Shown piece after piece: positions 29,834-59,552 of a DNA stretch of 64,000 nucleotides. A model generated the notes under the pieces. That model searched no databases and had not been told where the DNA came from. It worked only from the letters and a program-made list of their open reading frames with translations. The position numbers were made by a program, and so were the translations under genes. Positions within the stretch are counted from its first letter, which is position 1, and every line of letters starts with the position of its first letter. The stretch is from contig JAACJP010000036.1 of NCBI GenBank assembly GCA_013368375.1, forward strand, positions 372,001 through 436,000, given 5' to 3'. The stretch comes from Tricholomella constricta (taxonomy: Eukaryota > Basidiomycota > Agaricomycetes > Agaricales > Lyophyllaceae).

Positions 29834-31559
29834 TCAAACGGTTTCCAAATGAATGTTTCTCTTTGCTGCAGCATTCAATACCCTCTGAATGAGATGCACA
29901 TCCGATCCCAAAGGGTCACTGCTCCATGCAATGAAGACACTCTGCCAGCCTGTCACGCCTATGGCATGTTCAAGTGGTCCCAAGAGCAGATCCACAGAAG
30001 CAAATGCTATGGTAATGGAGCTGCGGTTCTCGAGGTCATCGGGGCCTGGGCCCGCTTGACCGCCTTTCCGTGAAACGGCGAGGGCAGTGACATGTGCAGC
30101 GTCCACTGTCAAGATGTGTAGAGCGTCCAATGTGGGCATGGCTGCATCGAGGGCGAGCTCCTCCTCAGGAGAAGAGCAGGGTATCGAGCAATTTGTGATA
30201 GCAAGTTCAGTGAGCGTGGAGGCGATTGAGGACAGGAACATAAAGAAGCCGTGATTCGAGAGACCTTGAACATTACTCAGATTGAGAGTATGTAGATGAG
30301 GCAGCGTGGGCGATGTGACAAAAGACATTAGCTGCGAGCTGGTCAGTGTACCGGAATGGAGGTCAAGTGTTTCGACCTTGCATGCGAGGGAGTGTGGGTA
30401 TAATGCGATGCTGTGGTATCTGTCAATTGCCGCTCAGTTTTGAGAGGCAATGATTTGCTTACTCGGAATTCTTCTGCGTCCATTCTTGCAGCCGCAGTAC
30501 CTTGAGATCCTGCCACTGGGCAATGGCCACCTGAATTTCAGTTATGCTTAGAAAGATAGCACCTGATCCTCCCGATTTAAGCGCCAAGGACCGCACTTGA
30601 CGCAATGTTGAAAGGGTTTGTACAATGAGCCCTGCCACCCCTTGTGGGAAAGGCTGAAGCCATACTGCAGTGACTGACGTAGCAAGTCCCAGAATGGTGA
30701 GAAGATCGTGCCAATCCGCGATAGTCCGATTTGACTCATGGGGCCTGAAGTCTGAGGAATAGAAGGTCTTCATCACGGTCGCGTGCTTTGGCTTTATCTG
30801 GAGAGACCGAGCAACACGGTGTATATACGGCTTGTCGAGGTCATATACCCCCCCAATATGCTCGAAGAAGAGGTCCAGGACATGCATCCATGATTTACAG
30901 ACAAGACCATATGCTAGTAATTCTGAGCGCCACCTGGAGTGCTTGTGCATCAAAGCGAGCTTGACGATGCGACAAATGAGTTTGTGAGGAAGCGGGTTGT
31001 AACATGGGCGAGTGGCTGTGGACATGATGCCGATAGAATGTAAGGGAATACCGTGGGCGGAAGGAAGCCCTAGGTGCCTTGTATCAAAAGGCGTGTTGCA
31101 GTCCAAGAGGACGAGGAAAGATGGATTGGTGGGGTCGCAGGCATGAATATACTCATATATTACTTGAAGCCATGGAGTGGTAAATGGTTCCGGACCTGTC
31201 TGATAAGGCAAAATTGTAACAACCTCAGACTCGGGGGACTCGCCGTGGCTCGCATCGACCAACTCTAGTAGAACGGTGCAGATCGGACGTCGAGGTGTGT
31301 AAGATTGCAAGAGATCTTGATTGTGCTGTCGTCCGTTGCGAAAATTGCTAAGAATGGTCCGGAATCTGGGGTGGTTCGGAGGAAAAGCCACTGTTGGTAT
31401 CAAGTTTCCGAGAACTCTCGTAGACGGAGAGGTGCAATTATGCCTTTGATAATCGGGACAATCCTTGAGTGTCTGGCCCGATAGGTCAGTTAGACTCTCA
31501 ACAGGAGTTTTAGACAAGTCATACAACGCTACGAAGCTTGACTGTTTCTTTCTTGACAA
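29834..31559 (-). CDS. F-box-like protein with leucine-rich C-terminal part (copy B)
   Basis: There are two exons: 31559-30463 and 30419-29834, with intron GTAAGC...GACAG of 43 nt, giving 560 residues. Residues ~190-240 fit an F-box-like module: NPLPHKLICRIVKLAL, then LLAYGLVCKSWMHVLDLFFEHIG. The C-terminal half has irregular leucine-rich stretches (LPHLHTLNLSNVQGL, LTELAITNC) as in substrate-binding parts of fungal F-box proteins. A role as an SCF ubiquitin-ligase adaptor is inferred from family only. The start codon is uncertain because the upstream region is also shared between copies. It is the only copy here without a visible frameshift. Confidence 0.7.
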
Positions 31560-32323
31560 TCAGGAGACGAATGGCTCCAAATCGATCGCGAGCCCCAGCA
31601 TCGAGTACAACAGAGATGATACAGCCCGTGCAAACGGCACGGCTACGGCCAGGTCCTCCGTGGAAGCTGTAGCTTGACCAATGAGTATCGGTGTTCATGT
31701 AGTAGGAGATTAGTAGAGGAGTTCCTAAGCTGTTGTAAGTGTTCAATGGATCAACTTGAATTCGTCAAAATTGACACGCCCAGGCCACATGTCAAGTTTA
31801 CACTGTGGGAATAACTGGCATGAAGCGCCTCAACCCCCTCATGATCAGGACAACGCAGAGTCGATTTTGAAGCGAACGGAGACACCCTCATTACTTGAGA
31901 AAATACGAACTCCCATGAAATCCCTAGTATTGGAGAGGATATCGCCTTCGATGGAATTGAAAATCTTATCCTCATGGACGTCGAACGTGACATCGAATTT
32001 CTGCGAAATATAGACCAGTCAAAGTGGTCAACAATCATCGCCATCGGAGCACCATGAATCCACTAAAAACCAGAAAGTAAGTGATTATTGAATACACGAC
32101 CTCCTCGACGACATCGAACATCAACGCCAAATTCAAAATTTCCTCAATCAGCCAGTCCCTCGACCCCACATGTGGTTAGCTGCTGAAAAGGTGTGTAGGC
32201 GTGCGTAGCAAAGCAAGGTAAAGCCTCCTGGTCTCTGTCCTAGTAGAACCTTGAATCTCCTCTCTATTCAAATACTCATGTCAATGAACCGAGAAGCGAA
32301 CTTGTGATTACTCCCTCTGGTTA

Positions 32324-33960
32324 TCAAACGATTTCCAAATGAATGTTTCTCTCTACTGCAACATTCGACGCCCTCTGCAAGATATCGTCATCCAAATCCG
32401 AAAGTTCCTCGCTCCACTGAATGGAAACTCTCTGCCAGCCTGTCACGCCCATGGCATGTTCAAGTTGTTCCAAGAACAAATCCGCAAAAGCAAATTCGAT
32501 AACAATGGAGCTGCGGTCCTCGAGATCGTCGAGGTCCTGGCCTGCTTGAACACCTTTCCGTGAGATGGCGAGGGCAGTGATGTGCGCGGCATCTACGCTC
32601 AAGGAGTGGAGAGCGTGTAAAATTGGCATGGCTGCATCCAGGGCAAGCTCCTCCTCAGGAGAAGAGCAGGGCATCAAGCAATCCATGACGACAAGATGAC
32701 TGAGCGTGGAGGCAACGGAGGACAGGAACAAAAAGAAGTCGTGGTCCGAAAACCCTTGAATTTCATGGAGATGGAGAGTATGTAGATGAGGCAGGGTGGG
32801 CGAGGTGACGAAAGACATTAACTGCAAGCTGGTCAGTGTATCACGATAGAGGTCAAGTGTTTCGATCTTGCATGCGAGGGAGTGTGGGTATAATGTGATG
32901 CTGTGGTATCTGTCAATTGCCTCAGTTTCGAGTGGCAATGATTTGCTTACTCGGAATTCTTCTGCATCCATTCGTGCAGCTGCAGTACCTTGAGATCCTG
33001 CCACTGGGCAATGGCCACCCGGATTTCAGTTATGCTCAGAGAAAGAGCACCTGATCCTCCCGCTAGCATCGTCAAGGACCGCACTTGACGCAATGTTGAA
33101 AGGGTATGTACGATAAGCCCTGCCACCTCTTCTGGGGAAGGCAGAAGCCGTACTGCAGTAACTGATGTAGCATGTCCCAGAATGGTGAGAAGATCGTGCC
33201 AATCCGCGATAGTCAGATTTGAAGGCTCCTTGAACCTGTAGTCGAAGCAACAGAAGGCATTCATCAAGGTCGCGCGCTTTGGCTTTATCTGGAGAGACCG
33301 AGAAACACGGTGTATATACGGCCTGTCGCTGTCAAACTCCCCTCCCATAAGCTCAAAGAAGAGGTCCAGGACATGCACCCAGGATTTACAGACAAGACCG
33401 TACGCCAGTAATTCCAACCGCCAGCTATGGCGCTTGTTTATTAAAGCGAGCTCGACGATGCTACGTATGACCTTGTCAGGAAGCGGGTTGTACAGTGGGC
33501 GAGTGGCTGTGGGAATGATGCGGATAGAATGCCAGGGAATACGTTCCCGCCTGTCGAAGGGGTGGGGGGTGGGGCAGGTGCGTTAGATTCAAAGGTGCGT
33601 TGCAGTGCAAGAGGGTGAGGAAAGATGGACTGGTGGGGTCGCAGGCATGGGTATACTCATACATTATTCGAAGCGGTGGAGTAGTGAATGGCTCCGGGCC
33701 CGCCTGATAAGGCAAAAGTGTAACAAACACGCAGGACAGGTCGGGGATCGCATCGACCGACTCTAGTATAACGGTGCAGATCGAACGTCGAGGTGTAGTA
33801 GATTTCAATAGATCTTGACTGTGCTGTCCGAGTCGTCCGTTGCGAAAATTGCTAAGAAGTGTCCGGAACCTGGGGTGGCTCGGAAGAGCAGCCGCCGCCC
33901 CTGTTGGTACTTCGTAAAAGATGGAATCTTGATCGTTCCAATCATGCCCTTGGAAATCGG
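32324..33960 (-). pseudogene. F-box-like gene copy C, frameshifted
   Basis: Exon 2 (32909-32324) has exactly the same length as in copy B and is similar throughout. Exon 1 ends at 32951 with the same intron position. The upstream part is open from about 33960 (FRTLLSNFRNGR) to about 33560. The frame is then lost in a G-rich patch at 33556-33580, and the F-box region continues in another frame (LPDKVIRSIVELAL, LLAYGLVCKSWVHVLDLFFEL). Unless the patch is a sequencing error, this copy is broken. Confidence 0.7.
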
Positions 33961-34260
33961 GAAATTCCTCCTGGAGTGTCTAATCCAATGCTTGAGTCAG
34001 ATAGACTACTCTCAACAAACAGGAATCATGGGCAAGTCTTACAACGCTATGGAGCCTGACTGTTTCTTTCTTGACAATGAGGAGACGGATGGCTCCAAAT
34101 TGATCGCGAGCCCCAGCGTCGAGTACAACGGAGATAATGCAGCTGCAAAGGGCATTGCAAAGCACAGGTCCTTGGTCGAAGCTGTAGCTTGACCAGTAAG
34201 TGCCGGTGCTCATGTGGTTAGAGTTTAGCACAGGAGTTGTAGAGAGTTGCAAGCCGTTGT

Positions 34261-34540: not shown

Positions 34541-37222
34541 CTACGCAGTAATGTCCGCCGGTTGTTCTTCCTTCAAACCATCCAAGCTGGCTTGCTGCTG
34601 CCACATACTGTGATACAAACCGCCCCGTCGGAGGAGCTCTTCATGGGTGCCTTCCTCGACAACCTCGCCATCCTTCATCACAATGATCAAGTCTTAAAAA
34701 GGTTCTAGATCAGCAGGTAAGGATGTGTAGGATCGGGGGAGAAACGTACCGGCTTCGACGACAGTCTTCAAGCGATGAGCGATAAATATGCTCGTTCGCG
34801 CTTTATCCAACAACGTGCTATTAATGTTCTTCATCAACTCCGACTCCGTATGCGCATCCAACGCAGACGTCTAAACGGCGATTGTAAGAAAGACACAAAG
34901 CAACGGCACGGGAATAGGACTCACAGCCTCGTCAAAGAACAGGATCGGCGGATCCTTGAGCAACACACGCGCAACTGCCAAGCGCTGCTTCTCCCCTCCA
35001 CTAATCATCAGCCCCCTTTCGCCCACCTGCGTCGCATACCCATCCTGCAGCCCCATAATCGTATTGTGCACATTCGCCTTCCGCGCGGCCTCCCTGACCT
35101 CCTCGTCCGTCGCATCCAGCCTCCCATACCGGATATTATGCAGAATGTCCGAATGGAAGAGTGGTGTGTCCTGGGGAACGACGCCGATGCTGCGGCGGAG
35201 GCTGTCCATCTTGATGTTGTAAATGTTTTGGTCGTCGATGAAGATTTGGCCCGAGGCGGGGTCATAGAACCTGTAGAGGAGGCGGAAGACGGTAGACTTT
35301 CCACACCCGGAGGGGCCGACGATGGCGACTTTCTTGCCGGCGGGAACGGTGAAGGAGAGGTTGCGGAAGATGGGGCGGTCCGCGTGGTAGCCGAAGGTGA
35401 CATTCTCGAAGCGGACGGATCCGCCTTTCAGATCAATGGGGCGCGCGTTGGGCTTGTCCTGTCGGTCCTGCAGCGTCAGGGAACTGGAGAAAATAATGAC
35501 GAACGTGGAGACAGACAGACCTGTGGGGGAGGATTCTCCTCAACGAGTTTGAATAACACCTCCATATCTAGGAGGTTCTGCCTCATCTCGCGATAAATCG
35601 TACCCAAGAAGTTGAGTGGAAGCGACAGCTGGAAGATGAGTTGATTGACCATGACCAGGTCTCCCACCGTCATCGTTCCTACACCAGGTATATGAGAGAA
35701 AGTTTCCAAAAAGACTTCCGTATCCACAAACCGTTAATGACGCCCTGGGCTGCCAAAACCATGGCTGCTGTCAAGGCAGACGAGAAGATGACGTTCTGAC
35801 CAGAGTTCAGGTAGGCCAACGATGTCGTAATCTTCACCGAAGACTTTTCATACTGTGCCAGGTGTTTATCATACTGTGCAACTTCGTATTTCTCGTTGTT
35901 GAAATGCTACTGGGACGCGGTCAGGTGTCAAACCGCACTAGAGACGTACGGCTACCGCACCTTGACGGCCTCAAAGTTGATCAAGGAGTCAACGGCTACC
36001 GTTGCTGCCTTGTTATCTGCTTTGTTGGCTTCCCTGCGGAAACGAGTCCTGCATAGCGGATGAATTTCTGAAACGGACTGGGTGTGGTGGACAGACTAAC
36101 CGCCACGATGTTGTACGAACGGTAAACCAGGTGTATGCACCCATAGCAATTGCAGTGATCGCTGCAAAGTCCCAGCCAAACTTGTACGTCTGCAAAAACG
36201 GGATTTATACCTTGTGCAGGCATTTGTTTAAATAATGAATGGACCGACCAGAATACCGCAAACCATCGTGATTTCAAACGCCGTAGGTACGATCCGGAAA
36301 ATGATAGCCTGTAGCAGGAACGTGATGCCTCTGCAACTCGTTGAACCTCAAATCAAGCCGAACAAGGAATTCGACGCACTTGGTACCCCGGTCAATCGCG
36401 CGGGTCAGGCCTCCTGTTTGCCGCGATAGGTGGAAGCGCAGGTCGAGATGCAGAAGATGTTCAAAGGTCTCCCTTGCGACCTTGCGAATGGCCCGTTGCC
36501 CGATCCCCGCAAATACAGTGTTCAACAGCTCCCCGAAGACCGTGGCGCCTATCCGAGCCGCTCCATCTGACATTCGCGACTTTCAGCTCTGGTTCAGCAT
36601 CCTAGGGCAATTACGACTCACATCCAAGGATCAAACTTCCCGCAACGATCCAGACAGTGGAGCCCGCCGTAAAGTCGACATTGAGAGTGTCGATCACGCT
36701 TTTGAAAATGAACGGAACTTGGACGTTCAACACCTACACAGAAGCGACCAGGTTTGTGGGGTTAATTGAAGAAAACCCAACGTCACAAGAAGTGTTGCAA
36801 CCGCGAACCTTGCCACCGACAAGAAGTGCAAACCCTAAGAGAACTGTCCCACGCGTCTTCCAGTCATTCTTCGGCCACACATTCACCATGAGCCGCTTGA
36901 CGATATTCCAGTCCGTCTTCCTCTGTTCCTTCGCAGTTGGATCCTCCTCCTTTCCCGCCGTCGGTTTCAGTGCCCCCTTCTCCTGCGCAGGTCGCTTGGG
37001 ATCGGCCAAGGTTTGTTCCGGTTTCGGTGCCAGGTGTTGGAAAGCCCGACGCGACGCGATTCGAAAGTCGAGCGATGGCTGTCGGCAAATTGGTCCAAAG
37101 GACCGTTTCGACGACGCCCACCGCAAGATGTGTGTGTTACGAACACTCTGCCGCGAACATGGAAGTAGCGGTGCGCCCAGTGTTGGAAGGAGGTGGGTAG
37201 CGCGTCTGACACTACCCAGCAT
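34541..37222 (-). CDS. ATM1: Mitochondrial ABC transporter Atm1 (iron-sulfur cluster biogenesis)
   Basis: There are eleven exons (37222-36809, 36733-36622, 36566-36380, 36330-36249, 36189-36101, 36048-35961, 35906-35732, 35678-35521, 35467-34925, 34870-34750, 34692-34541) that join in frame to 706 residues, the family's normal size. The N-terminus is Arg/Ser-rich without acids, a mitochondrial presequence. The half-transporter membrane domain shows [33 protein letters not shown] and [20 protein letters not shown]. The nucleotide-binding domain has Walker [10 protein letters not shown], signature ISGGEKQR and Walker B ILFFDEAT. Atm1 exports a glutathione-linked sulfur or Fe-S precursor from the matrix. 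The donors GTTCGC and GTCGGT are unusual but the joins match the family. Confidence 0.92.
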
Positions 37223-38238: not shown

Positions 38239-41200
38239 CTACTCGTCATCAGGATCATAATAACCTCTCGCCATACTCCCACTCCGATCGATGATGGCAT
38301 ACATGTTCCCCACCTTGACGCGACCGACCACGCACTGCACAGATGTCATGTCGACGACTTCTGTTCGCCCCTGCCTCTTATAGTAATGCATATCGAGTGA
38401 GTTCTCCGCCTCTACAGTGCAAGTGCGGATGGCAGCGAGGATCAGAGTTGCTGGTTGGACGAGCTCGAGATCTGGCGTGGCCGGGAGTTTAACGACGAAA
38501 ATGTTCTCGAGCTGACCATAGAAGGACTGGGGCTCGTACTCGGGTTCGCGGTCACGGCTGCGGGCATGCTTGTCGACAAGGAGATCATACTGTAATGGAA
38601 CCTGATAGAAAGCACTGTTGAAAGGGAGAATATTCAAATTCACGTACTCGGACAAATGTTGCATCACGGTTGTCATATTTGGGTTTGACCAATGACGATG
38701 CATGCATAGTGTCACCATCGAGTCTCCGAACCTTCCCCCATTGTTCGATAATTTCGGGCTTCAGGTGCTTCCCAATTATTCTGGTGGTTGTGTTGAATCG
38801 AGTTGCCAGCGAGACAGCGATTTTTTTGACAAGAGTCGGTAGAAGAGAGCCGGAGCTGGCTGTACGACGGGGTGGAAGAAGCTCACATGTTGGATCTGGA
38901 AGAAGGCATGTTAACTGGCAAAATTTACATACTTAAAGCCTGCTTACATGACACGTTGTGAAAATTAAGTTGTGCACTGGATCCCTTGGGCAGAAGTGAG
39001 AGACTGTCTTCGAGGTTGTACTTGATCTTGATGAGGGAGAGCTGCGCGTTCGCAGCAACATAAGAATCCATGCTCCTGTATGGGTGGCGTCGGCTCTTGA
39101 TGGTCGGCAGAAGGCGGCCGCAGAAGCGCTCCATTGGAAAGGCCCAATACGCCCAAACTGGCCCTGCTTCTCGGATACCATCAGCAATGTGCAGGAGAGA
39201 ATGGACAGTGAGTGGACATGACGAGAGTCGCTCTGGACTGTATTGATAATATAGCCTGTGGAAGAATTTCGAGTTGTTTACAAGATATACTGCAATAAGG
39301 CTGCGAGAACTCACTTTTCGTAATCTGTTACCCACTGCGCAAATCCAGTCCTGATACGCGAAATGTCCTGGTCTGAGAGTTCGAATTGTAGGCATAGGTG
39401 GATGATTTTCACAAGATCGACGAAGTGGTCGTAGTAAATGCGGTTGCGAAACTTGTTGTGAAGGAGCACGGGACCAATATAGAGGGTCCACAGTGACCAC
39501 ATGTCCGCAGTGCAGGCGGTCTTATCCTGAATGATATCGCGCGGGCGTGCTCCGAATGCTGTTGGGATCGTTGAACCTGAGGCTACGGTGGCCGCTCCAA
39601 TATCCTTCCATAAGGCTGAGTCTAGTTCATACGTTCCCTCGCCCTCATCAAGATCCTTGTAATTCCCACTCCAAAGAAGGACAAGGTTCTGGAGCAAGTT
39701 TTCGTACACGAGGTGCATGAAATCACAAGGAAAAGATTGAGGGAACGAAAGAGATGATAGACAGGCAAGTAAGGGAACTCCTTTGACACCGTATGACTTT
39801 GCGAGACGTTCAGCTTCGGCCTGAGTGGGTGCTGATTGGACTTCGCGGCCTTGATCAAGAATCTCGGCATGGGTACGAAGAGGTAGATCCAATGGGTCGT
39901 ACTTGGGCACAAAATTCGGTGTACCGGCACTGGGATGATGGCTTCGATCAAGCGGAACATAATGTGTGGGTCCACGGCTGTGAGGAACCCGGACCCCTTG
40001 TATCTTGCATGAGCGGCAAGGAAAAACTCCGTTGTGGCCCTTCATGCGCATTACCATCGAGACTGCCGGCATGTCACCAAAAACAAGGATAAGATATGCA
40101 TGCAACACGAAGAGGGCCGACATCGTCACATCGAAGGCACGTACACCAAGGGACAGCCTGAGGAGTTCTTCGACAAGTGGCCAAAGAAAAGAGTCGAAGT
40201 CTTTTGGCTTCTTTGGTCCAGGAATTACCCCTACACACATGATATTCTTCAGGTGGAAGCGGATCTCGGGGGGAAGATTGTAGTTGAAAATTATGAGGGG
40301 CCAGGCAGTGTGTTTTCGCTTCCGAAATGGTGCAAATCCATCTGTTGAGAGACCCAGGGCAATGTCGCGATCATCAGAGAAGAATTTATATGGGCGTGCC
40401 TTTCCATTTACTTCGACAAAAGTTTCCTTCAGTAAACCATACAGCTTGCCATCAAAGACGTCGCTGACTCCACCACTGGTGCTGCGGCGGAATGTGGCAC
40501 GATACTTCATCAGTCGCACGACGGTAGGGTTTTGAAAATGTTCGATAAGGCGGCGAATGATAGGGATATAAATAAAGCGGTTTCGAGAACGCTTTTCCGA
40601 GTCGAGCCGCGGTTCGTTACAGAATGTACAAGTCTCTGCATTTGCGTGGGGGCCTACATAGCAAAGGCAAGAGTTGATACAGCAGTCATATGGAACGGGG
40701 CGGAGTGCGGCAAGGAATTCGACGCGAGCCTTGGTAGATTTCCATGTCTTGATATTGGCCTTTGGGAATGTGCTTCGAAGCTTGCTGAATGTCTTCTCCG
40801 TTAGGTGTTCGTCTGTCTTCAGTGCAAAAGCACGTAGTAGTTCGAAATCTTCTTCAGTAAGTTCTTCAGCTGTGCAGATATGATGAGCATGTCGTGGATG
40901 TGAACAAAAAAAAATTGTACACACCGATCTGAGCAAGCTCGCGTTCAAGGTCCTCGCCAATCCAATCAGACGCCGGGAGTCCATCTTGCTCCTCCTCTTC
41001 CTCCTCTTCACTGGAAACCCACATGGACTGCTCTCCGTCATCTTTACTCACTTCCTCTTCCTCGTCATCGCTCTCATACTCCTCCACCATCGCAGTCCTG
41101 AACCGTGTCCGATTTGTCCATGCATTCGCATGTACCTCAGTGAGGATATCTTGCACTTGCTCTGGATCTGCAACGAGCGGAGGCAAGTCATCAGCAGGAC

Positions 41201-48400: not shown

Positions 48401-50593
48401 GCGTGGGTTTGGGTATGATATATGCATCGAGTGTCATGATTTGGCGCCGTTCCCCAGTGCGGCGCATTTGAGGGCGGCGGAGGAGCATTTAGCAATGTTG
48501 GAGGTGATGTGGGTGAATAGGGAGATGGGGAGGGAGAGGGAGAGGGAGGAGGAGGAGAGAGAGAGGGAGAGGGAAGGTCGAGAGAAGCAGAAGGGAACGG
48601 AAGCGGGAACGCAGCCACGCCGCATTTCGCCGCGTCCCCCGCCCAACGCGAATGCCGTCATCCATCTCCCCTTTCCAAGCTCGCCCACCAACACACATAA
48701 TGCAATGAACTCGCTCCTGCCCGTGATCTGGTTCCTCCAAAAATGGCTTGCTCCTGTTATCCCGCCCCAAACACCCGAGCCCAAGGCCAAGCCCACGCCA
48801 CCGCCCCAAACACCCCCACCGCCGCCGCCCAGCACTACTAGTGGTTTAGGATCACGCCGCTGGAGCTCAGTCACCGCGCTGATGCCGCACTTCCCCTCCT
48901 TCCCGGGCTCCTCTTCTTCATCCTCATCCGCCCCACCTGCTGCACCCACCATGCCCACGCGTACCCGCTCCTTCACCTCGCCCCCGGGGCACCCACCGCC
49001 CGCCACACCCTCCGCCACACCACCGCCTGTCCCCACCCGCACGCGCCCCATCAAAGTCCTCATCTACTCCGCGGACGGGTACACCGAGTCCTCCGTACCG
49101 GCGCTGTGCCTGCTCATGGCGGTCAAGCGCCTCGCCCTGCCAGAGGCGTACCTAGAGCTGCAGGTCGCGCGGCGCCGCTCGTTCTTTGTGTACCATGCGG
49201 ATCTGGGCGTGCTTCGACGCGTGGAGGCACGGTTGAGGGAGGACGAGGAACGTGCGAGGGTTGAGCGGGAGAGGCTTGAGCGGGCTAGGATGAGGGTGGA
49301 GCTTAATCAGAACCAGAACCAGAGCCAGAGCCAGAATCAGGATCAGGATCAGGATCAGGATCAGGATCAGGGCGAGGCGCACGGGGTGAATGGGAATGGG
49401 AAGCGGGTCGCGCCTGCGCGCGCGGGCTGGGGGGAGGGGTGGAGGCAGCTGCCGCCGCCACCGTCCGTGCCGACGCCCCCGCCTGCACAGCAGCAGCCTC
49501 TCGCGGGGAGGCCTGCGGCCAAGTCGGTGTCCTTTGCACATGCGCCGCCCCGGTCGCCGCCGCTGGTGGTGCCGTCGCAAGGATATGCGATGCATAACAA
49601 GTTCATCTCGGGCACGCCGCCGGCGCAGCAGGCGCAGCCGGTGGTGGCGAAGGGCCGGCCGAGGGCGAACACGAGCCCTTGGCTCCCTAGTTTGTTTGGA
49701 GACCACCAGTCGTGGTTCAATGACTCGCGGTTCGATGGGAGCTTCCCCAGCCGCGTGTTGCCTTTCTTGTATCTTGGGAACTTGTGAGTCTTCGTGTTTT
49801 GGGAAACCTTACACCGTGAAGCTGATTGGGCCGGGATGTGTCGTTGTTTCGTCGTTGTTGTTGTTGTTGTTGTATTTAGGAACCACGCGTCGAATGCGTA
49901 CATGTTGCATGCGCTTGGTATCACGCACGTTGTGTCGGTCGGAGAATGCGCGCTCGTCCCTCCGCCGCATCATATGCATGGGCATGGACATGGGCAGGGC
50001 GCGTACCACTCCACAGTGCCGTACCAGCACCCGGGGCCGGGCGCACACTACACGCCAGGCAAGGGGCCCGGGCAGGGCTCGCTGTGGTTTGAGGAGCGCG
50101 AGGGCCGCATCAAGGTGTTGGACATCAAGGGCGTGTGTGATGATGGCATCGACACGCTCGAGCCGCAGCTTGAACCCATTTGTGATTGGATTGACCAAGC
50201 GCGGGTGGAGGGGGGCCAGGTGCTGGTGCATTGTCGAGTGGGCGTGTCGCGGAGCGCTACTGTTACTGTGCGTGTCTTCTCCGGCACCGTTTTTTGTTTT
50301 TTTTTGGTCCTTTTAATTATTTTTCTTTTTGCTTGTTGCAGATTGCGTATGTGATGAAACACCTCGGGCTCCCGCTCGTCGACGCGTACCTCATTGTCCG
50401 CTCGCGCAGGCTTTCGGTGCTGATCCAGCCGAACATGCGACTGTTGTATAACCTTTGTGGGTGGGAGATCAAGCTCGCGAAGGCGCGTGCTGGGGATGAC
50501 GAGGACAGTTTGCGAAAGGAACTCGCAAGGATGTTGACCTGGCCTTACCTCGCCAAGGAAGTCCACGCCCTCAATGAGAAATATCTCCATTGA
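45467..50593 (+). CDS. PPS1: Pps1-type dual-specificity protein phosphatase
   Basis: Seven exons (45467-46149, 46207-46275, 46331-46709, 47297-47456, 47584-49783, 49880-50267, 50342-50593) join in frame to 1376 residues, larger than yeast Pps1 (about 800). The C-terminal ~230 residues are the phosphatase: FLYLGNLNHASNAYMLHALG, GITHVVSVGE, the conserved aspartate in LDIKGVCDDG, the catalytic loop VHCRVGVSRSATV (Cys-X5-Arg) and RSRRLSVLIQPNMRLLYNL. In yeast, Pps1 acts in S-phase control. The extra length is low complexity: Asp/Glu runs, an (ER) charged stretch, Pro-rich parts and a Gln-Asp repeat from a GATCAG hexanucleotide. Intron 3 (46710-47296, 587 bp) is about ten times the length of the others. 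Confidence 0.88.
46710..47296 (+). other. Unusually long intron 3 of PPS1 (587 bp)
   Basis: It runs from GTGAGT to TTTTTCGCAG, between FGIQV and PIYATLSDIVV. Other introns of this gene are 52-127 bp. It is CT-rich toward its 3' end. I recognise no transposon ends or coding frame in it. Confidence 0.7.
49328..49372 (+). repeat. In-frame hexanucleotide repeat in PPS1
   Basis: Six or so copies of GATCAG (variants CCAGAATCAG before it) encode a Gln-Asp run after a Gln-Asn/Gln-Ser run. Length should vary between strains. Confidence 0.85.
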
Positions 50594-51567: not shown

Positions 51568-53487
51568 TTAAAGCATCCCCTTGACCAATCTCACGATTAC
51601 CTTCGTCCAGAACCGCACACGGCGCTCAGCACCTTTCCAATCGGAGGCAAATGCCCTCACCCGGCTGATCTCCTCCGCCAGCTGATGTCGTATGGCCATG
51701 GTGGATGACGCAGGCTCGTCATGCTCCTGCGCGGATGAGGATACACTATCCGGCTTCGCAGTGTCCTGCGCTGAAGGCACGACCATGATGAAGGATAACT
51801 CGGTGTCGATGTGAGCCGAACGCGAGTTGAGGTTGGTTGATCCAAAGAGAGTAAGGACCGGTGGCGAGGACGGCGTTGGAGAGACCCATATTCCTGGTAG
51901 TCTGATCTGAATACTGTGATATGATAACGTAGAGAAAGAAAACCAAACCTTTCGCGTGATAAGTCCAGCCGGGCCGTTCCCATTCACTCAATTGAACACC
52001 TCTGCTGGTAGCGGATTTCCACGCACGACCAGCCTCCTTGACCGCCCTCATGAACCGCTGCTCTAGTAAAGTGTAGCCCTCTGGTATCCTGCCTGAAATG
52101 CCTGTTGATCCGAAAAATCCATTGGCCTATTCAAGAAGTTCGTTTGGTATAAACAGCAATTGAAACTTGAATCTCGAGAATCATACCTTGGGACTCGCAG
52201 CGACTATTCGAGTGTCGACGTCATTCTTAAGAACCAGGTCCTGATATGGCTGATACAGGCCGAAATAACCACTGGTGAGATCCACCAGAGGTCGCAAGGC
52301 GCCCGTTGACTTCGAGTCTTGCATACGCGTGGGCTGTGAGCTTAAACGGCGGAAAAGGAGGGCGAGCGCGGACTCTTCTTCGCGGATATTGAACTGTCCT
52401 GCTTGAATAACAGGGAAGAGGATGACGTCGTCAGTATTAGCACCGTTGCTTGTTGAGGCTAGTTCCTTCTCGTCACGCGAGGGTTCCAACTGATGTGTGG
52501 TGCGATTCGAAGTCTGGAAGGTGGAAAGGGCCGCTTCTGCTTTTTGGTGTATGTAATGGGGGTGCGTTTGTGAATCAGGCCAATGGAGGGTATATCCCTC
52601 ATGTTGGTATGAATGAGGTCCGAGGTCAGAGGAGGTGAGGCAGAGTTTATAGGAGAAAGTAGAGATGGTGCGGAGGAAATCGAAACAATATTGCGCCAGG
52701 TGAGGTTGCGCTGCGAAGTGTATGTAGCGATCTTGACGGTTCGTGAAATAGGACTGGTTGAGATTAGCTCTGTGTAAGGCGAAGCGACATATTAATGATT
52801 GAAGATTGGGATCTGCACCGTTAATGACTCACCCACTGATGATGACTTCATTATCGACGCCATATATTTTGGCGTGCCAAGTACCCCATCCTTCGTTAAA
52901 CCGCGGCGGCACAACTCTCGCGAGTATCCCACGCAAATTAGGACTTCGAAACAGGGATATGCTCACGCGTTCCGGGAACTCCTGGATGAGAGGCAAGAGT
53001 ATTTTTGCTGTTGACGAGGCACCCGGCCGTGTCGAACGGTTCAAGTCCAGTTGTAGGGAAAGCTGAAGAGAAGGCTTTTTCAAAAGAGATTGACGTAAAG
53101 CATCTATCTGATGAAATCATTAACGCGCGCTGAAATGCAGAGATGAAGAGACGTACTAGCTCGGACTCGGCAGAACCTATGTAAAGTGAAGATATGAATA
53201 TTCGGTGCTCTGCGCGTCGGACCATGTCCTTATTCAGATATTAGATTGGTAGCTTCGAGATTTACCCAACATACCAACAAAAGAGCATAGAACTCCCGAG
53301 GCTCATTTAAGATAGATACTTTACTTGAAGATACCGTAAACGCTGGATGGTTTCGCGCTAGGCTCGAAGTGACTTCCCGGACACATGGATCGATCCCATA
53401 GGTAGAGATACATCGTAAGCGACGTCCAGGAATGCGCACATAGCACGACTGGGCCAACAAGGCACGACGGGCAATGGCAAGGAGCAT
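51568..53487 (-). CDS. PGS1: CDP-diacylglycerol-glycerol-3-phosphate phosphatidyltransferase (PGP synthase)
   Basis: Six exons (53487-53275, 53228-53157, 53107-52833, 52769-52187, 52126-51949, 51893-51568) join in frame to 548 residues, close to yeast Pgs1 (521). It belongs to the phospholipase D superfamily, with two catalytic regions. First is HAKIYGVDNEVIISGANLNQ and YFTNRQDRYIHF (HxKx4D satisfied). Second is WTYHAKGIWVSP with LTLFGSTNLNSRSAHIDTEL. The N-terminus (MLLAIARRALLAQ, no acids at first) could be a mitochondrial presequence. SLYIGSAESEL matches the family. It makes phosphatidylglycerophosphate, the committed step to cardiolipin in mitochondria. Confidence 0.92.
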
Positions 53488-53637
53488 GTGAAGGTGATGA
53501 AGAGCAGGCCGCCTTCGGCTTTTTTCGGCCCATCACGTGCAGAGTGCTCGCATTGACGATTGGCGTTGTCCCCAGCGGCTCGAGTAACCCTCACTACAAC
53601 CTTCTCACAGAAATCGCAAGCAACAACTCATACAACA
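53488..53637. promoter_or_regulatory. Shared divergent promoter region of PGS1 and the Hsp110-TPR-CHAT gene
   Basis: Only 150 bp separate the two start codons, so both promoters must overlap here. No clear TATA box is seen. The arrangement suggests but does not prove linked expression. Confidence 0.55.
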
Positions 53638-56600
53638 ATGTCTACTACAATCATGTTAGGGATCGACTTCGGTGATCAACTCTGCAAGGTAGGATCTTCT
53701 TTAGCCGCCGAAGTGCATCGCTAATCAGAGCACAGGTGGCAATCGCAAATCCGACGGACAATGGGCGCATCGACGAGCTAAATGTCTCTTTCTTGAGCCC
53801 GCTGCTTCCGTGCGTCACCTGCTGATGTTCGATGTTATGAAAATCGAGCTATTCCTTAGATCTTTCCTCCTCGTCGAGGATGAGCGCAGCATCAGGTTTG
53901 GAATTGACGCCCAGGCGGCTAACAATCAAGCCAACATCGGCTCGCTCAAGCGCCTCTTGGCCTTCGTCGGAGGCGAATTCCCCGAGAATTACGATCCCCT
54001 CACCCCATTCGTTCTCAAGAAGAAAGAAAACGGAGAGGTTGGAGTCGAGGTGAGTCGAAATCGTTATCCGTCACTACGGACAAATTTATCTGACTCCATA
54101 TGCAGGTCAATATCGCTGGCGCAAAGCAGGTATTCCCTGCGATCCAGCTAATCTCTCTTTTTCTTCGCAGGGTTATTGCCTTGGCTTCCTCTCTCGCACA
54201 GGGCGAGGTCACGCAAACTGTGGTCACCGTTCCAAGCTGGTTCAGCAACGCCCAGCAAAAGTCCATGGCCGAAGCCTGCGAATTGGCTGGCTTAGGACTC
54301 GTTGGGATCATCACTGAGACAACTGCAGCGCAGATCGACTACGCTGTTTCGGGCTTGAGGACTCTTGCTGCTGAGACTCAGCACAACGTGATCTTCATTG
54401 ACATTGGTCATACAGCGACCTCTGTCTCTGTCCTCTCGCTTCTCAACGGGAAGCCCGTCTCGAAAAGTGTGATCTCTGATCCTAGCTTTGGCGGTCGCAA
54501 CATTGACCTCGCCATTTTGAATCATCTGAGAACCCTTGCTCCAGAGTTTTCAGGGAACAGTCTGTCAGTCCTTGCAGATATTCAGAAGGTCAAAGAAGCC
54601 CTTCACCTCTGTGCGTTGAAAGATAGTTTGTCTGTCGTCTCGTCTGAGTCTGAGGTTTTCCTGAGTGGAGAGACACTTTACAAACTGGTTGGCTCTTTAA
54701 ACTGCATTTCGCGACTTGTCAAGGAAGCCTTGAATGAGGCTGGCCTTACTCTGGATGTCATTCATAGAGTTAGGTTGAGTGGTGGCTCAATGCGCCTTCT
54801 TCAAGTTCGAGACTGCATCGCAAGTCTCTTCCCACTCGCAGTTTTAGAATCTGGTTCGCAGATGGCGGGTGCTCGGGGTTCTCTGTATGCTTGCTCTACT
54901 TTGGTTCAGTCTGGCTCTTTCTGCTTTGACAGCAGTGCAATATCTGGATTATTCTCTGGTTCTCTAATCTGGGTTAAGCTTGAGAACAACACTGTCATGA
55001 CATATACAATGCCTCAGATGCGCCATCACTCTCCAGAGCAGCAGTACACTTTGGTCCTGGATGAGAAAGACGTGTTGAATGAGCTCAGTTTCACGACATC
55101 GGAGGTCACCTTCAAGGATGCTCTTCAGTCGCAGAACAGACTTGTTGAGATGACTCCAGATGATCATCCTGACAAATCCCTACATCTAAACAAGCTCGCA
55201 ACTTTGCTGTCTGAGCAGTATGATTGCTTGAATAGAACCAATAGTCTTTTGCTGGCCCTTTATATGCAGACCAGAGCGATAGCCTGCTCCACAGTACCAG
55301 CAGACACTGCTAGATACTTGAATCACGTTGCTATACTCTTGCAAAAGCAATATAACCTCAACAAGGAGCTGTCTATCTTGGAATTTGCTATCACCAGTCT
55401 CCACAGTGCTCAGGGATTAACAAACAATGATGACCCAGACAAAGTGAAATACTTGAACAATCTCAGCAGTCTCTGGCATATCAAATATGGGAGAACAAAT
55501 GACATCCAGGATTTGAGCCAATGCATCATGGTTAAGGAATTGGCTATGAGTCTCTTGGTGGAGGGTGATCCCAAGAATGGAGCACACCTGAATCTCTATG
55601 GCCTTCTGTTGGAAAACCGTTTTGATCAACAAGGAGACATATCTGATCTGAATAATGCCATTCGGGCACTTGATCAAGCAGTAAATTTGCCACTTGAGGC
55701 TGAATTAAAGTCTATGTGTCATTTCAACTTTGGTGTCTTGCTACGAAAATTGTATGACAAGACTGATGCTCTTGCAGACTTGGATAGATCTGTTACTCAG
55801 CAGACAATGGCTGTAGGCCTTGCATTAAACACAAATTCACAGAAGACAATGTATTTGAATCATTTGGGAGAAACTCTTCAGACTTGCTTTATCAAGCAGT
55901 GGGATCTGAAGGATCTTAACAAAGCTATTGATTATCACCAACTTTCAGTGGATTTGGTTGATGATCATCATGAAACCAAGGCAGTCTATCTGAATAACTT
56001 GGGCAAAGCACTTGGCATGTATTTTACCCATCAGAAAAGTGATTCTCATCTGGATCAAGCTATTGTAGCTCAAGAGAGAGCTGTTGATTTGACAACAGAT
56101 CAGCATTCAAAAAAAGAGCTGTATCTCAGAAATCTTGCATTGTTGTTAGAATCCCGCTACACCAATACCTCTGACATTCAGGATTTAAATAGAGGCATTG
56201 AAGTTAGACAAGCTGCACTCTCAGTGAATATGCGACCCAAGGCAAACCACTTTGAAGCTTTGGCCACATCACTGGTTAGCAGATATACAAACACTCAGGA
56301 TATATCTGATCTGGATAAAGCAATTTTGTACAGAAGAGAAGCTGCTAATATGACTCCTGACTTCATGTCTACCAAAGCTGGCTATCTTGTTGACTTGGCT
56401 AAATGTCTTCATAAACACTACATGAAAAAACAAGGTATCTCATATCTAATGGAGGCGATAGTTATTCAACAGGAAGCAGTGGACCTTCTTGAGGAGGATT
56501 TGACTCCTGAACACCTGCATGATCTGGGATTTCTGCACAGGGAGCTTTTTGATAGACAAGGCCAAGTTAAAGACTTAGAGAAAGCTATTGCAGTCTTTGA

Positions 56601-59552
56601 ACTTGCTGTCTCAACCAGGATAGAGCATAACAGACCAATGTATCTCAATCATCTTGGCAGTGCACTTTACCAACAGTTTTTGAATTCTCATGATATTGCA
56701 CAACTTGAAAGATCTGTTCAATGCCTTGAGGATGCAATTGCATCAGCGGAGTTAGATGAAGACAAGATTAGTTACACAAACAATCTTGCAATATCTTTGC
56801 TTTCCCACTTTGAAACTTTAGGAAACATTGTTTATTTGAAAAGTGCTGTGAAGAGCTATAATATGATTGTAGAGGCAACTACAGAAGGTCATCCTCGCAA
56901 ACCTGCTCGTCTCAACAATCTTGGTGTCAGCTTGCAATCTTTATATGACAATGAAAATCAGATTGAGGACCTTGACAAGGCTATTGAGACCTTTGAAAGT
57001 GCTGTTGCATTACTTCCTGATGATGATTCAAATAAACTGAAGTACACAATGAACCTTGGAAATGCTTTAACAACACGCTTCAAGCAATCTGGGAATGCTG
57101 GTGATCTTGATATTGCTATAGGCTACCAACATCATGCACTTGAAAGAATGGAAGATGGAGACCCTGAGAAGCCTGGATTTTATAGTAATCTTGGAAACTC
57201 TCTGCAAGTCCGATTTGAAAATTATGGAGAACTTCATGATTTAAACAGGGCTATTGCGTATAAAATGAAGGCTGTTGAATTGACACCTAAAGAACATGCA
57301 TGGCTGCCAAAGTATCTACATAATCTTGCAAATTCTTTGCGGTCACGCTTTGTGAAGCTAAAAAACTCAGAAGACTTAACAAAGATGATTGAATATCAGC
57401 AGTCAGCTATTGATATTACTCCAGAGACATCTAAAAACAAATCTATGTATTTGTTGAGCTTGGGAATTTCCTTGTCAGTGGCATACAATGCAACTGGAGA
57501 CATAGCTGATCTTGACAAGTCCATCAAATACCATGAAAAGGCCCTCATGATGAGAGCTGAAGATTACCCACAAAGCTCATTGATTTTACTGGAGCTTGGA
57601 GATGTCCTTAGAAAGCGGGGCCAACAGACCAGACAAGTCTCTGATCTGAATAGAGCAATATCATGCTTTGAAGATGCTCTCAAAATCATCCCTGGGTCAC
57701 ATCCAGCTAAAGCAAAGCTGCTTCTTCTTCTGGGTCAAACGCTGGAAGCAAAATTTGAGCAGGATGATCAGTTAAATTTACTTGCACAGGCTATTGAAGC
57801 TTACAGCCAAGCATCCAAGATTCAGATAGGATCATATATAGCTCAATTTCATGCTGCTCTTGCATGGATTGAATGTGCAACCAAATACTCTGATCCTTCA
57901 CTCAAAACTGCATATAATGCTGCATTTTTAATTCTGCCCTATTTTGCATGGCTTGGGCTGAGTTTTGAAGCTCAGCTTCAAAGGCTGATAAGTGCAAGAA
58001 CTCTTGGCAGCGATGCAGCTGCTGCTGCAATTCAGTTCAAAGATTTTGATTCTATTGACTTGGCTCTTGAATGGTTAGAACAAGGGCGGTCAATTCTCTG
58101 GAATCAAATCCTACAACTTCGGTCACCATTGACAAATTATGAAAAAGTTGATCAGCATCTGAAAGAAAAAATTCAAAGGCTTTCTGAGGAGCTTGACAAT
58201 CAACGAGGACAAGGCAGTGCTTTGTACTCGTCTTATCACTTGAAACAAGATTTTTTCACAATTGAAAATCTATTTAAGAGGCAGCACACATTAGCCACTG
58301 AATTGGATTTTCTTATGAAGGAAGTTCAAGAGAGATATGAAATGACTGGAATTTTCAACAGACCCACTTCATCTGAATTGAAAAAGTCTGCTGGCTTAGG
58401 TCCAGTTATTGTTCTCAATATAAGTCATTTGCAATGTGATGCACTTATCATACAATCACCTACTCTTCCAGTCCTTCACTTGTCTTTGAGTGATTTCACT
58501 TACAAAAATGCTGAGAATTTGCAAAATCAATTAGGAAATCTCTTGACATCACGACTTGGCTTGCGAGATGCTATAAGGCATGGATTCCCTGTAAACAAGC
58601 TCCAAAGAGGCTCTGATGATGTGTTCCGATTTATTCTAAAGGAGCTGTGGCTAAAAGTTGTAAAACCTATTATTTCTCTACTTCAAATATCTGTTCAGGT
58701 AAGGTTATCTCAGAGCACAAAAAATTGATTTCTAATGCTCAAGTTTTCTGCTGATAGAGTGATGTAACAAAACTACCACATATTTACTGGTGCCCGACTG
58801 GACCTCTGACATTCTTACCTCTGCATGCAGCAGGTATCTATACTTCTTCTGGTCATCCCAGAGAAATCCTGGCAGAATATGCAATCTCATCATATATTCC
58901 AAACTTGAGTGCTTTATGCACCATTTTGCGAAAACAAGGCCAGCAACCTTCTCAGCTAAAAATGCTGGCAGTCATTCAGCCTGAGACTCCAGGGCAGCCT
59001 AAACTTCCTGCTACACAAAAAGAACTTACAATCATTTCTGACCATGTTGATGATTTTCCACTTGATGTTCTTGTTGGTGCAGAGGCAACAAGGGAGACTG
59101 TGTTGAATCAACTCAAAAATAACTCTTGGGTTCACTTGTCATGTCATGGAATACAAGATCTAAGCAATCCAGCTTTCAGCGGGCTTGCTCTTCATGATGG
59201 TCTGCTGAGCCTTCTTGATCTTGTCAAGAATGCTTTGCCCAATGCAGACTTTGTCTTTTTGTCTGCCTGTCAAACTGCCACTGGAGACTATGTACAACCA
59301 GATGAAGCCATCCATCTTGCAGCAGGTTTCTTGTTAGCAGGATTCAATAGTGTGGTTGGTACCATGTGGTCTGTAAAAGATATTGATGCTCCAGAAGTCG
59401 CAAACAAAGTATATGAACATTTGTTCAAAGACAAGCAGCCAGATGTCACTCAAGGTGCACTTGCATTACATATTGCAGTCCAGGAACTTCGATTGAAATA
59501 TAAAAACTCTTCTTTTGGGTCTTGGGTCCCTTACATTCATATGGGCTTGTAA
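53638..59552 (+). CDS. Hsp110-like ATPase domain - TPR array - CHAT protease fusion
   Basis: Five exons (53638-53688, 53736-53809, 53860-54049, 54106-58698, 58758-59552) join in frame to 1900 residues. Residues 1-~365 are an Hsp70-superfamily nucleotide-binding domain closest in motif to Hsp110/Sse1: MLGIDFGDQ, VTVPSWFSNAQQ, FIDIGHTATSVSVL, FGGRNIDLAI and LSGGSMRLLQVRD. The substrate-binding part is absent. Residues ~457-1346 hold about 20 repeats of ~44 residues with pattern YLNNLG..L..R....DI.DL..AI....AV (TPR-like). Residues ~1530-1900 are a CHAT peptidase with YWCPTGPLTFLPLHAAG, His1766 in VHLSCHG and Cys1807 in FLSACQTATGD. CHAT is a caspase-like (clan CD) protease. Base use shifts from GC-richer to AT-rich after about 54950, near the domain junction. 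A role as sensor-scaffold-protease in stress, cell death or self/non-self response is inference. Confidence 0.9.

Follow-up and report, generated by a model that had tools for sequence, protein, structure and literature searches.

How does the nucleotide-binding domain (NBD) of a chaperone come to stand at the head of a fungal protease, and what might it do there? The question is raised by a gene in a 64,000-nucleotide stretch of the Tricholomella constricta genome (contig JAACJP010000036.1, positions 372,001 to 436,000; hereafter the window), in which an Hsp110-type NBD, an array of TPR-like repeats and a C-terminal CHAT protease domain follow one another (Table 1). The original prediction, made from the letters of this stretch, had described the combination as a single in-frame five-exon gene and knew of no described protein with such an N-terminal module. 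Sequence comparison confirmed the observation, and no description of an Hsp70 or Hsp110 domain joined to CHAT was found in the open-access literature. The terms 'Hsp70' and 'CHAT domain' occur together in papers on a coral genome, a trypanosome methyltransferase and picocyanobacteria; in the accessible portion of the coral paper they have nothing to do with each other. TPR-CHAT proteases themselves are already known, and the Hsp110-type head is what sets this one apart.

Joining the five exons yields 1,900 codons and a stop, with no inner stops. The four introns (47, 50, 56 and 59 nt) all run from GT to AG and contain CTNA-type letters that, read by eye, resemble branch points. Introns 1-3 were placed from splice signals and from the Hsp110 alignment, which continues across them, while the related Cyclocybe protein P0105, introduced below, backs only the gene start. 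Exon 4 (4.6 kb) is open over 1,544 codons, for which base composition alone gives a chance of about 3e-42, and the five other frames of the same stretch each hold 65 to 134 stops. No splicing is required within 54106-58698, the junction between NBD and repeats included, and the frame runs through the interval around 54900-55200 where two genes or an assembly join had been offered as the alternative. Two genes or an assembly join at 53638-59552 are very unlikely, because this one open exon runs from within the NBD, the larger share of which it encodes, through every repeat and into the beginning of CHAT.

A Pfam scan of the spliced protein (12 families up to E 0.01) placed HSP70 at residues 7-347 (E 1.1e-36, over the cut-off), covering profile positions 2-350 of 599 only. 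Among the Hsp70-family matches in the host genome (44.1 Mb, 118 contigs), an Sse1-like gene was the best by far (33% identity, 115 bits; next match 46 bits), and in a sequence search of the PDB, SSE1 ranked first (E 7e-27), narrowly ahead of a 78-kDa glucose-regulated protein homolog (1e-24). In a 16-row tree the NBDs of the window protein and two relatives, together with six Hsp110s, were split from seven Hsp70s at 100/100, a division that persisted when the window NBD or both relatives were omitted, and the host Sse1-like protein was the nearest row to the window NBD. The head is in this way shown, by sequence-based computation, to descend from an Hsp110 of the fungal Sse1 type, set apart from Hsp70, as had been predicted. 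Structure did not serve as a discriminator: Sse1 came first in VIA-align with DnaK rows within 1 Z, and Foldseek on the NBD model returned Hsp70 NBDs at the top, so that fold alone gives no Hsp110 assignment.

Though it has common NBD ancestry with Hsp110/Sse1, the window protein is an Hsp110-derived NBD without the rest of Hsp110, and not an Hsp110. The NBD model (residues 106-544, mean predicted local distance difference test score (pLDDT) 65.5) shows an NBD-like fold up to residue 371, with weaker stretches in lobe IIB; the linker after it (372-459) was modelled with low confidence and leads into helices. Where Hsp110 has a beta-sandwich and an alpha-helix bundle, both are absent here and helices matching TPRs take their place. 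Just after the NBD, at window 54904-55131, LFSGSLIWVKL in the window protein and SSTGAMVWKEW in P0105 align and may form a common short motif.

The array of about 20 TPR-like units was also borne out. With a profile derived from four of the units, 20 stretches of 16 to 45 residues, several of them weak, were found across residues 448-1336, and Pfam placed TPR families between the HSP70 and CHAT matches; a sequence search of the array against solved structures gave zero matches. The CHAT domain at residues 1617-1899 scored E 1.3e-40 (140.1 bits, cut-off 24), and the His1766 and Cys1807 pair named in the original prediction was present in every one of the 46 CHAT rows aligned, that of the window protein included. 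The structure model of exon 5 (pLDDT 90.9) had Csx29/TPR-CHAT, gingipain and separase as its best fold matches in Foldseek and VIA, with caspases after them. Computation therefore shows a predicted peptidase with an intact His-Cys dyad in a modelled caspase/separase-like fold.

Protein database searches, each scoring about 8,000 candidates, were used to look for the same combination elsewhere. Residues 481-1900 gave 274 matches, and among the best 120 listed an HSP70 domain was found in two. P0105 is a predicted protein of Cyclocybe aegerita (1,434 residues) with the same domain order from its own start codon, and P0092 is a predicted protein of Agrocybe chaxingu (2,214 residues) with an unrelated stretch in front of the fusion; public databases list both as hypothetical or unnamed products. 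Residues 1-838 of P0092 carry domains that we take to be of kelch/muskelin type, and this is probably a merged gene model. Much of lobe IB is missing from both proteins, whose gene models may be imperfect, and since they are 79-82% alike they were counted as one lineage. In a search of the kind that had been proposed, a profile made from the three whole fusions gave 34 matches (7,987 candidates scored), of which only P0105 and P0092 have both domains. Among 121 proteins, a second profile, made from their NBDs alone, found no further NBD carrier. A search with the window NBD as a single sequence was rejected as too weak a query: its lone match was a Corallococcus Hsp70 protein, and it missed P0105 and P0092. 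One other protein, P0123 of Tritrichomonas foetus (2,480 residues), matched the fusion profile at 6.4e-48; an HSP70 domain is listed for it and CHAT is not.

The C-terminal block, compared with 139 matching proteins, was closest to P0092 (44%, 433 bits) and then to P0105 (43%, 419 bits). In a 123-row tree of the CHAT side the three fusions formed a clade with SH-aLRT 98, by a quick method run without bootstrap. The three NBDs grouped at 97/94 in 12 rows and at 85/76 in 16 rows, the latter grouping not starred and accompanied by long-branch warnings. Because two separate parts of the protein agree, the comparisons point to a single old fusion event, strongly from CHAT and moderately from the NBD, and because predicted proteins of two other mushrooms hold the same combination, the Hsp110-NBD/TPR/CHAT architecture looks real and inherited. 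A general pattern of chaperone-type heads on TPR-CHAT proteins is not claimed, since the CS (p23-like) head that a UniRef name gives to the near neighbour P0069 was not seen by Pfam up to E 0.01, and MIT and ubiquitin matches in P0106, P0116 and P0099 lay under the Pfam cut-offs. In the host genome two CHAT genes were found, a lower bound. The second (contig C5, about 1368997-1372889; L003:4498-8390) is a TPR-CHAT gene that groups with Mycena vulgaris P0093 in the 123-row tree, and no HSP70-like stretch was seen in its TPR-search match or in the open frames read, which were not scanned with Pfam.

Known TPR-CHAT proteins offer partial parallels. The window protein resembles the TPR-CHAT proteases of fungi, which go under the names 'TPR-like protein' and 'CHAT domain-containing protein', in having a TPR array followed by a C-terminal CHAT; those with a named source are, as we take their genera to indicate, mostly from mushroom-forming fungi. 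Unlike it, 118 of the 120 listed (of 274) are without an HSP70 domain in their precomputed Pfam annotation. According to the available parts of two reviews, a TPR-bearing CHAT protease in Podospora, also fungal, activates a gasdermin as one half of a two-gene pair (PMC12881547, PMC10197012). A search of the host genome with gasdermin PF04598 gave no match up to E 10, a model that may miss fungal gasdermins and can miss a multi-exon gene. The TPR-CHAT subunit of Craspase, Csx29 of type III-E CRISPR, works with a Cas7-11 partner, and none is expected in a fungus; with the NCBIfam Csx29 model NF041237, exon 5 alone reached 67.4 bits against a cut-off of 300 and exon 4 alone had no match. PADLOC on the exons reported BovA only, weakly (17.5 bits). 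Relative to separase, the window protein adds the TPR-like repeats and the Hsp110 head, and the sequence match between them is at chance level (E 0.67).

In fungi, sensors that change fast are marked by homogenised repeats. Repeats were compared by their median likeness within each array, in the window protein and the 120 listed relatives. The window median was 0.36 (0.21 after shuffling), a value equalled or exceeded in 117 of the 120 relatives, whose medians were 0.38 at the 5th percentile, 0.55 in the middle and 0.79 at the 95th; most fungal TPR-CHAT repeats are thus far more alike (median of medians 0.55 vs 0.36). Of the 121 arrays, those of P0092 and P0105 were the lowest (0.26), P0096 was third and the window tied for fourth with P0095, P0102 and P0118. 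The effect is not exclusive, as in 450-residue pieces 10 of 106 others were as low as the window's and 7 of 106 as low as the two relatives'. The fusion branch is unlike homogenised sensor repeats and, on this sequence evidence, may serve a fixed function and take no part in an arms race. The suggestion that the protein senses non-self fits poorly with an array whose internal likeness is near the bottom of the 121; in NLR proteins, repeats have been described as under positive selection in the portion of that work at hand (PMC9815663).

Taken together, we favour, at a probability of about one half, a single TPR-gated protease of fixed function in which the Hsp110-derived head is a regulatory surface for a constant partner, the likeliest being cytosolic Hsp70. 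A single joining event would have linked the NBD from one copy of a fungal Hsp110 (Sse1) to a TPR-CHAT protease, with the other Hsp110 parts lost. By analogy with other TPR-CHAT proteases, the array would keep the protease off and pass a signal to CHAT; in Craspase, the distance within the dyad H585/C627 changes from about 7 to 3 A upon activation, a conformational gating described in sections of PMC9729208. The head would be a fixed regulatory surface whose ligand is a constant cellular partner, not a variable non-self one, and cytosolic Hsp70 is the likeliest candidate because Hsp110 NBDs face Hsp70 NBDs; Sse1 and Hsp70 meet NBD to NBD, with added contacts from the Sse1 helix bundle, as passages of PMC4753570 report. 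When the contact between head and partner is lost or altered, by protein-folding stress or an attack on chaperones, CHAT would be freed to cleave some target, perhaps a death effector and perhaps not. The low internal likeness of the repeats and the two CHAT genes found, a lower bound, were counted in favour of a fixed function. A narrower version, in which the chaperone system is a safety catch, with the head held by cytosolic Hsp70 and the protease firing when misfolded proteins draw Hsp70 off or a parasite disables it, is unlikely as it stands, and if true it would be a direct tie in fungi between proteostasis and regulated cleavage or death.

Several findings weigh against this reading. 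The Hsp110 helix bundle, source of further contacts with Hsp70, is absent from the window protein, lobe IIB of its NBD is shortened in the alignment, and Met358 occupies the place of Sse1 Glu370 in the NQDEA motif, a residue with a predicted role in contacting ATP or Hsp70 according to the part of PMC3737180 available; for these reasons docking to Hsp70 may have been lost. The NBD is highly diverged among the three fusions (branches of 1.6 to 3.4 changes per column), more than would be expected of a docking surface under conservation, and support for the NBD clade may be inflated by these long branches. By tree distance and by identity (30% vs 23%), the window NBD lies closer to the host Sse1-like protein than to the other two fusions, and the C-terminal margin of P0105 over P0069 is small (419 vs 410 bits). 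As for the repeats, P0096, P0095, P0102 and P0118 have similarly low likeness without an NBD, and the three fusions are kin and not independent points. A three-unit heat-shock element was not found in 53000-53637 at up to one mismatch; window-wide, such elements numbered 21 and 21, near the chance means of 18.5 and 19.2.

The regulatory-surface reading gains its interest from what it would make accessible. Fungi hold many TPR-CHAT proteases, and here both the ancestry of the head on the sensor side and the class of its partners are known, which opens the trigger of a fungal caspase-like protease to direct tests. Should the head still report on Hsp70, one protein would link protein-folding stress to proteolysis.

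Among the other explanations, the one that survives best, although improbable, is that the NBD binds and turns over ATP as a nucleotide-gated switch and stands in for the NACHT or NB-ARC module of NLR-type proteins, as first proposed. In the alignment the window NBD retains Asp10, Lys72, Glu176, Asp204, Gly234-Gly235 and SGGSMR at 330-335, positions whose roles are presumed from Hsp70. That Hsp110 requires ATP binding and not hydrolysis, as parts of PMC4753570 state, would also suit a switch. However, the adenosine motif GGSxR is absent from both relatives (SGATTIL, SGPTAVL), and the position of Glu176 is Ala in P0105, while the Asp found there in P0092 also occurs in several Hsp110s and is hence no loss. 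Nucleotide gating is for this reason not conserved across the three fusions, unless the gene models of the two relatives, one lineage, are at fault, and the proposal is weakened. No NACHT, NB-ARC or other STAND module was found among the 12 Pfam families.

The same erosion of nucleotide motifs in P0105 and P0092 would suit a head that is a jobless leftover, or serves solubility or localisation only, with the TPR-CHAT part doing all sensing; that 118 of the 120 listed TPR-CHAT matches do without an HSP70 domain agrees with this. Against it, the open frame has been retained in two distant lineages and HSP70 is still detectable at E 1.1e-36, and we regard a head without a job as rather improbable. 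We give somewhat less credit still to an integrated decoy, in which the Hsp110-like head mimics a chaperone attacked by parasites and its modification activates the protease. A diverged copy of a host protein on an effector has the look expected of a decoy, and fungal NLR-type proteins with CHAT effectors exist, according to the portion of PMC10197012 available. However, no second fusion copy was found in the genome, the repeats are not homogenised, no parasite factor is known for the window protein, and divergence alone equally fits a loss of constraint. Two separate genes, or an error of assembly or gene model, are largely refuted: GC content at third codon positions drops along the coding sequence (0.67 over the first 100 codons, about 0.3 over the final 500) and P0092 shows that automatic models can merge neighbours (the stretch before residue 839), but the drop is gradual with its onset inside the NBD, the 1,544-codon frame crosses the join and P0105 keeps the same order.

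Table 1. Parts of the fusion gene in window coordinates, with the evidence for each.
Feature	Position	Strand	Evidence and remarks
Complete gene model	53638..59552	+	five exons, 1,900 residues and stop; spliced frame without inner stops, GT-AG introns
Exon 1	53638..53688	+	start codon and phosphate-loop strand GIDFG; aligns with starts of P0105 and Hsp110s
Exon 2 (NBD)	53736..53809	+	splice signals, Hsp110 alignment
Exon 3 (NBD, including Lys72)	53860..54049	+	splice signals, Hsp110 alignment
Exon 4 (remaining NBD, linker, all TPRs, CHAT start)	54106..58698	+	single open frame; open reading frame 54094-58728; stop statistics
Exon 5 (CHAT core and stop codon)	58758..59552	+	open reading frame, spliced frame, structure model
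Hsp110-derived NBD, residues 1-371	53638..54903	+	interrupted by introns 1-3
Linker, residues 372-447, at place of Hsp110 beta-sandwich	54904..55131	+	low-confidence in model; pLDDT <50 for residues 372-459
TPR-like array, residues 448-1336	55132..57798	+	20 profile matches, period about 45 residues
CHAT domain, residues 1617-1899	58639..59546	+	interrupted by intron 4; Pfam, exon 5 model, Foldseek and VIA matches
His1766 codon (predicted dyad)	59145..59147	+	46/46 rows
Cys1807 codon (predicted dyad)	59268..59270	+	46/46 rows

Related-looking open frames flank the fusion gene on both sides, at window 29834-33979 (-) and L004:2850-3242 (-), and perhaps belong to a local duplicated family; two pieces of them were scanned and had no Pfam match. 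The window also holds an ABC transporter ATPase stretch at 34874-35539 (-; E 2.6e-33) and a tnp2-type transposase at 39314-41047 (-; Transposase_21, E 1.5e-26). The dual specificity phosphatase domain at 49788-50351 (+; E 2.2e-11) lies about 3.3 kb upstream of the fusion gene.

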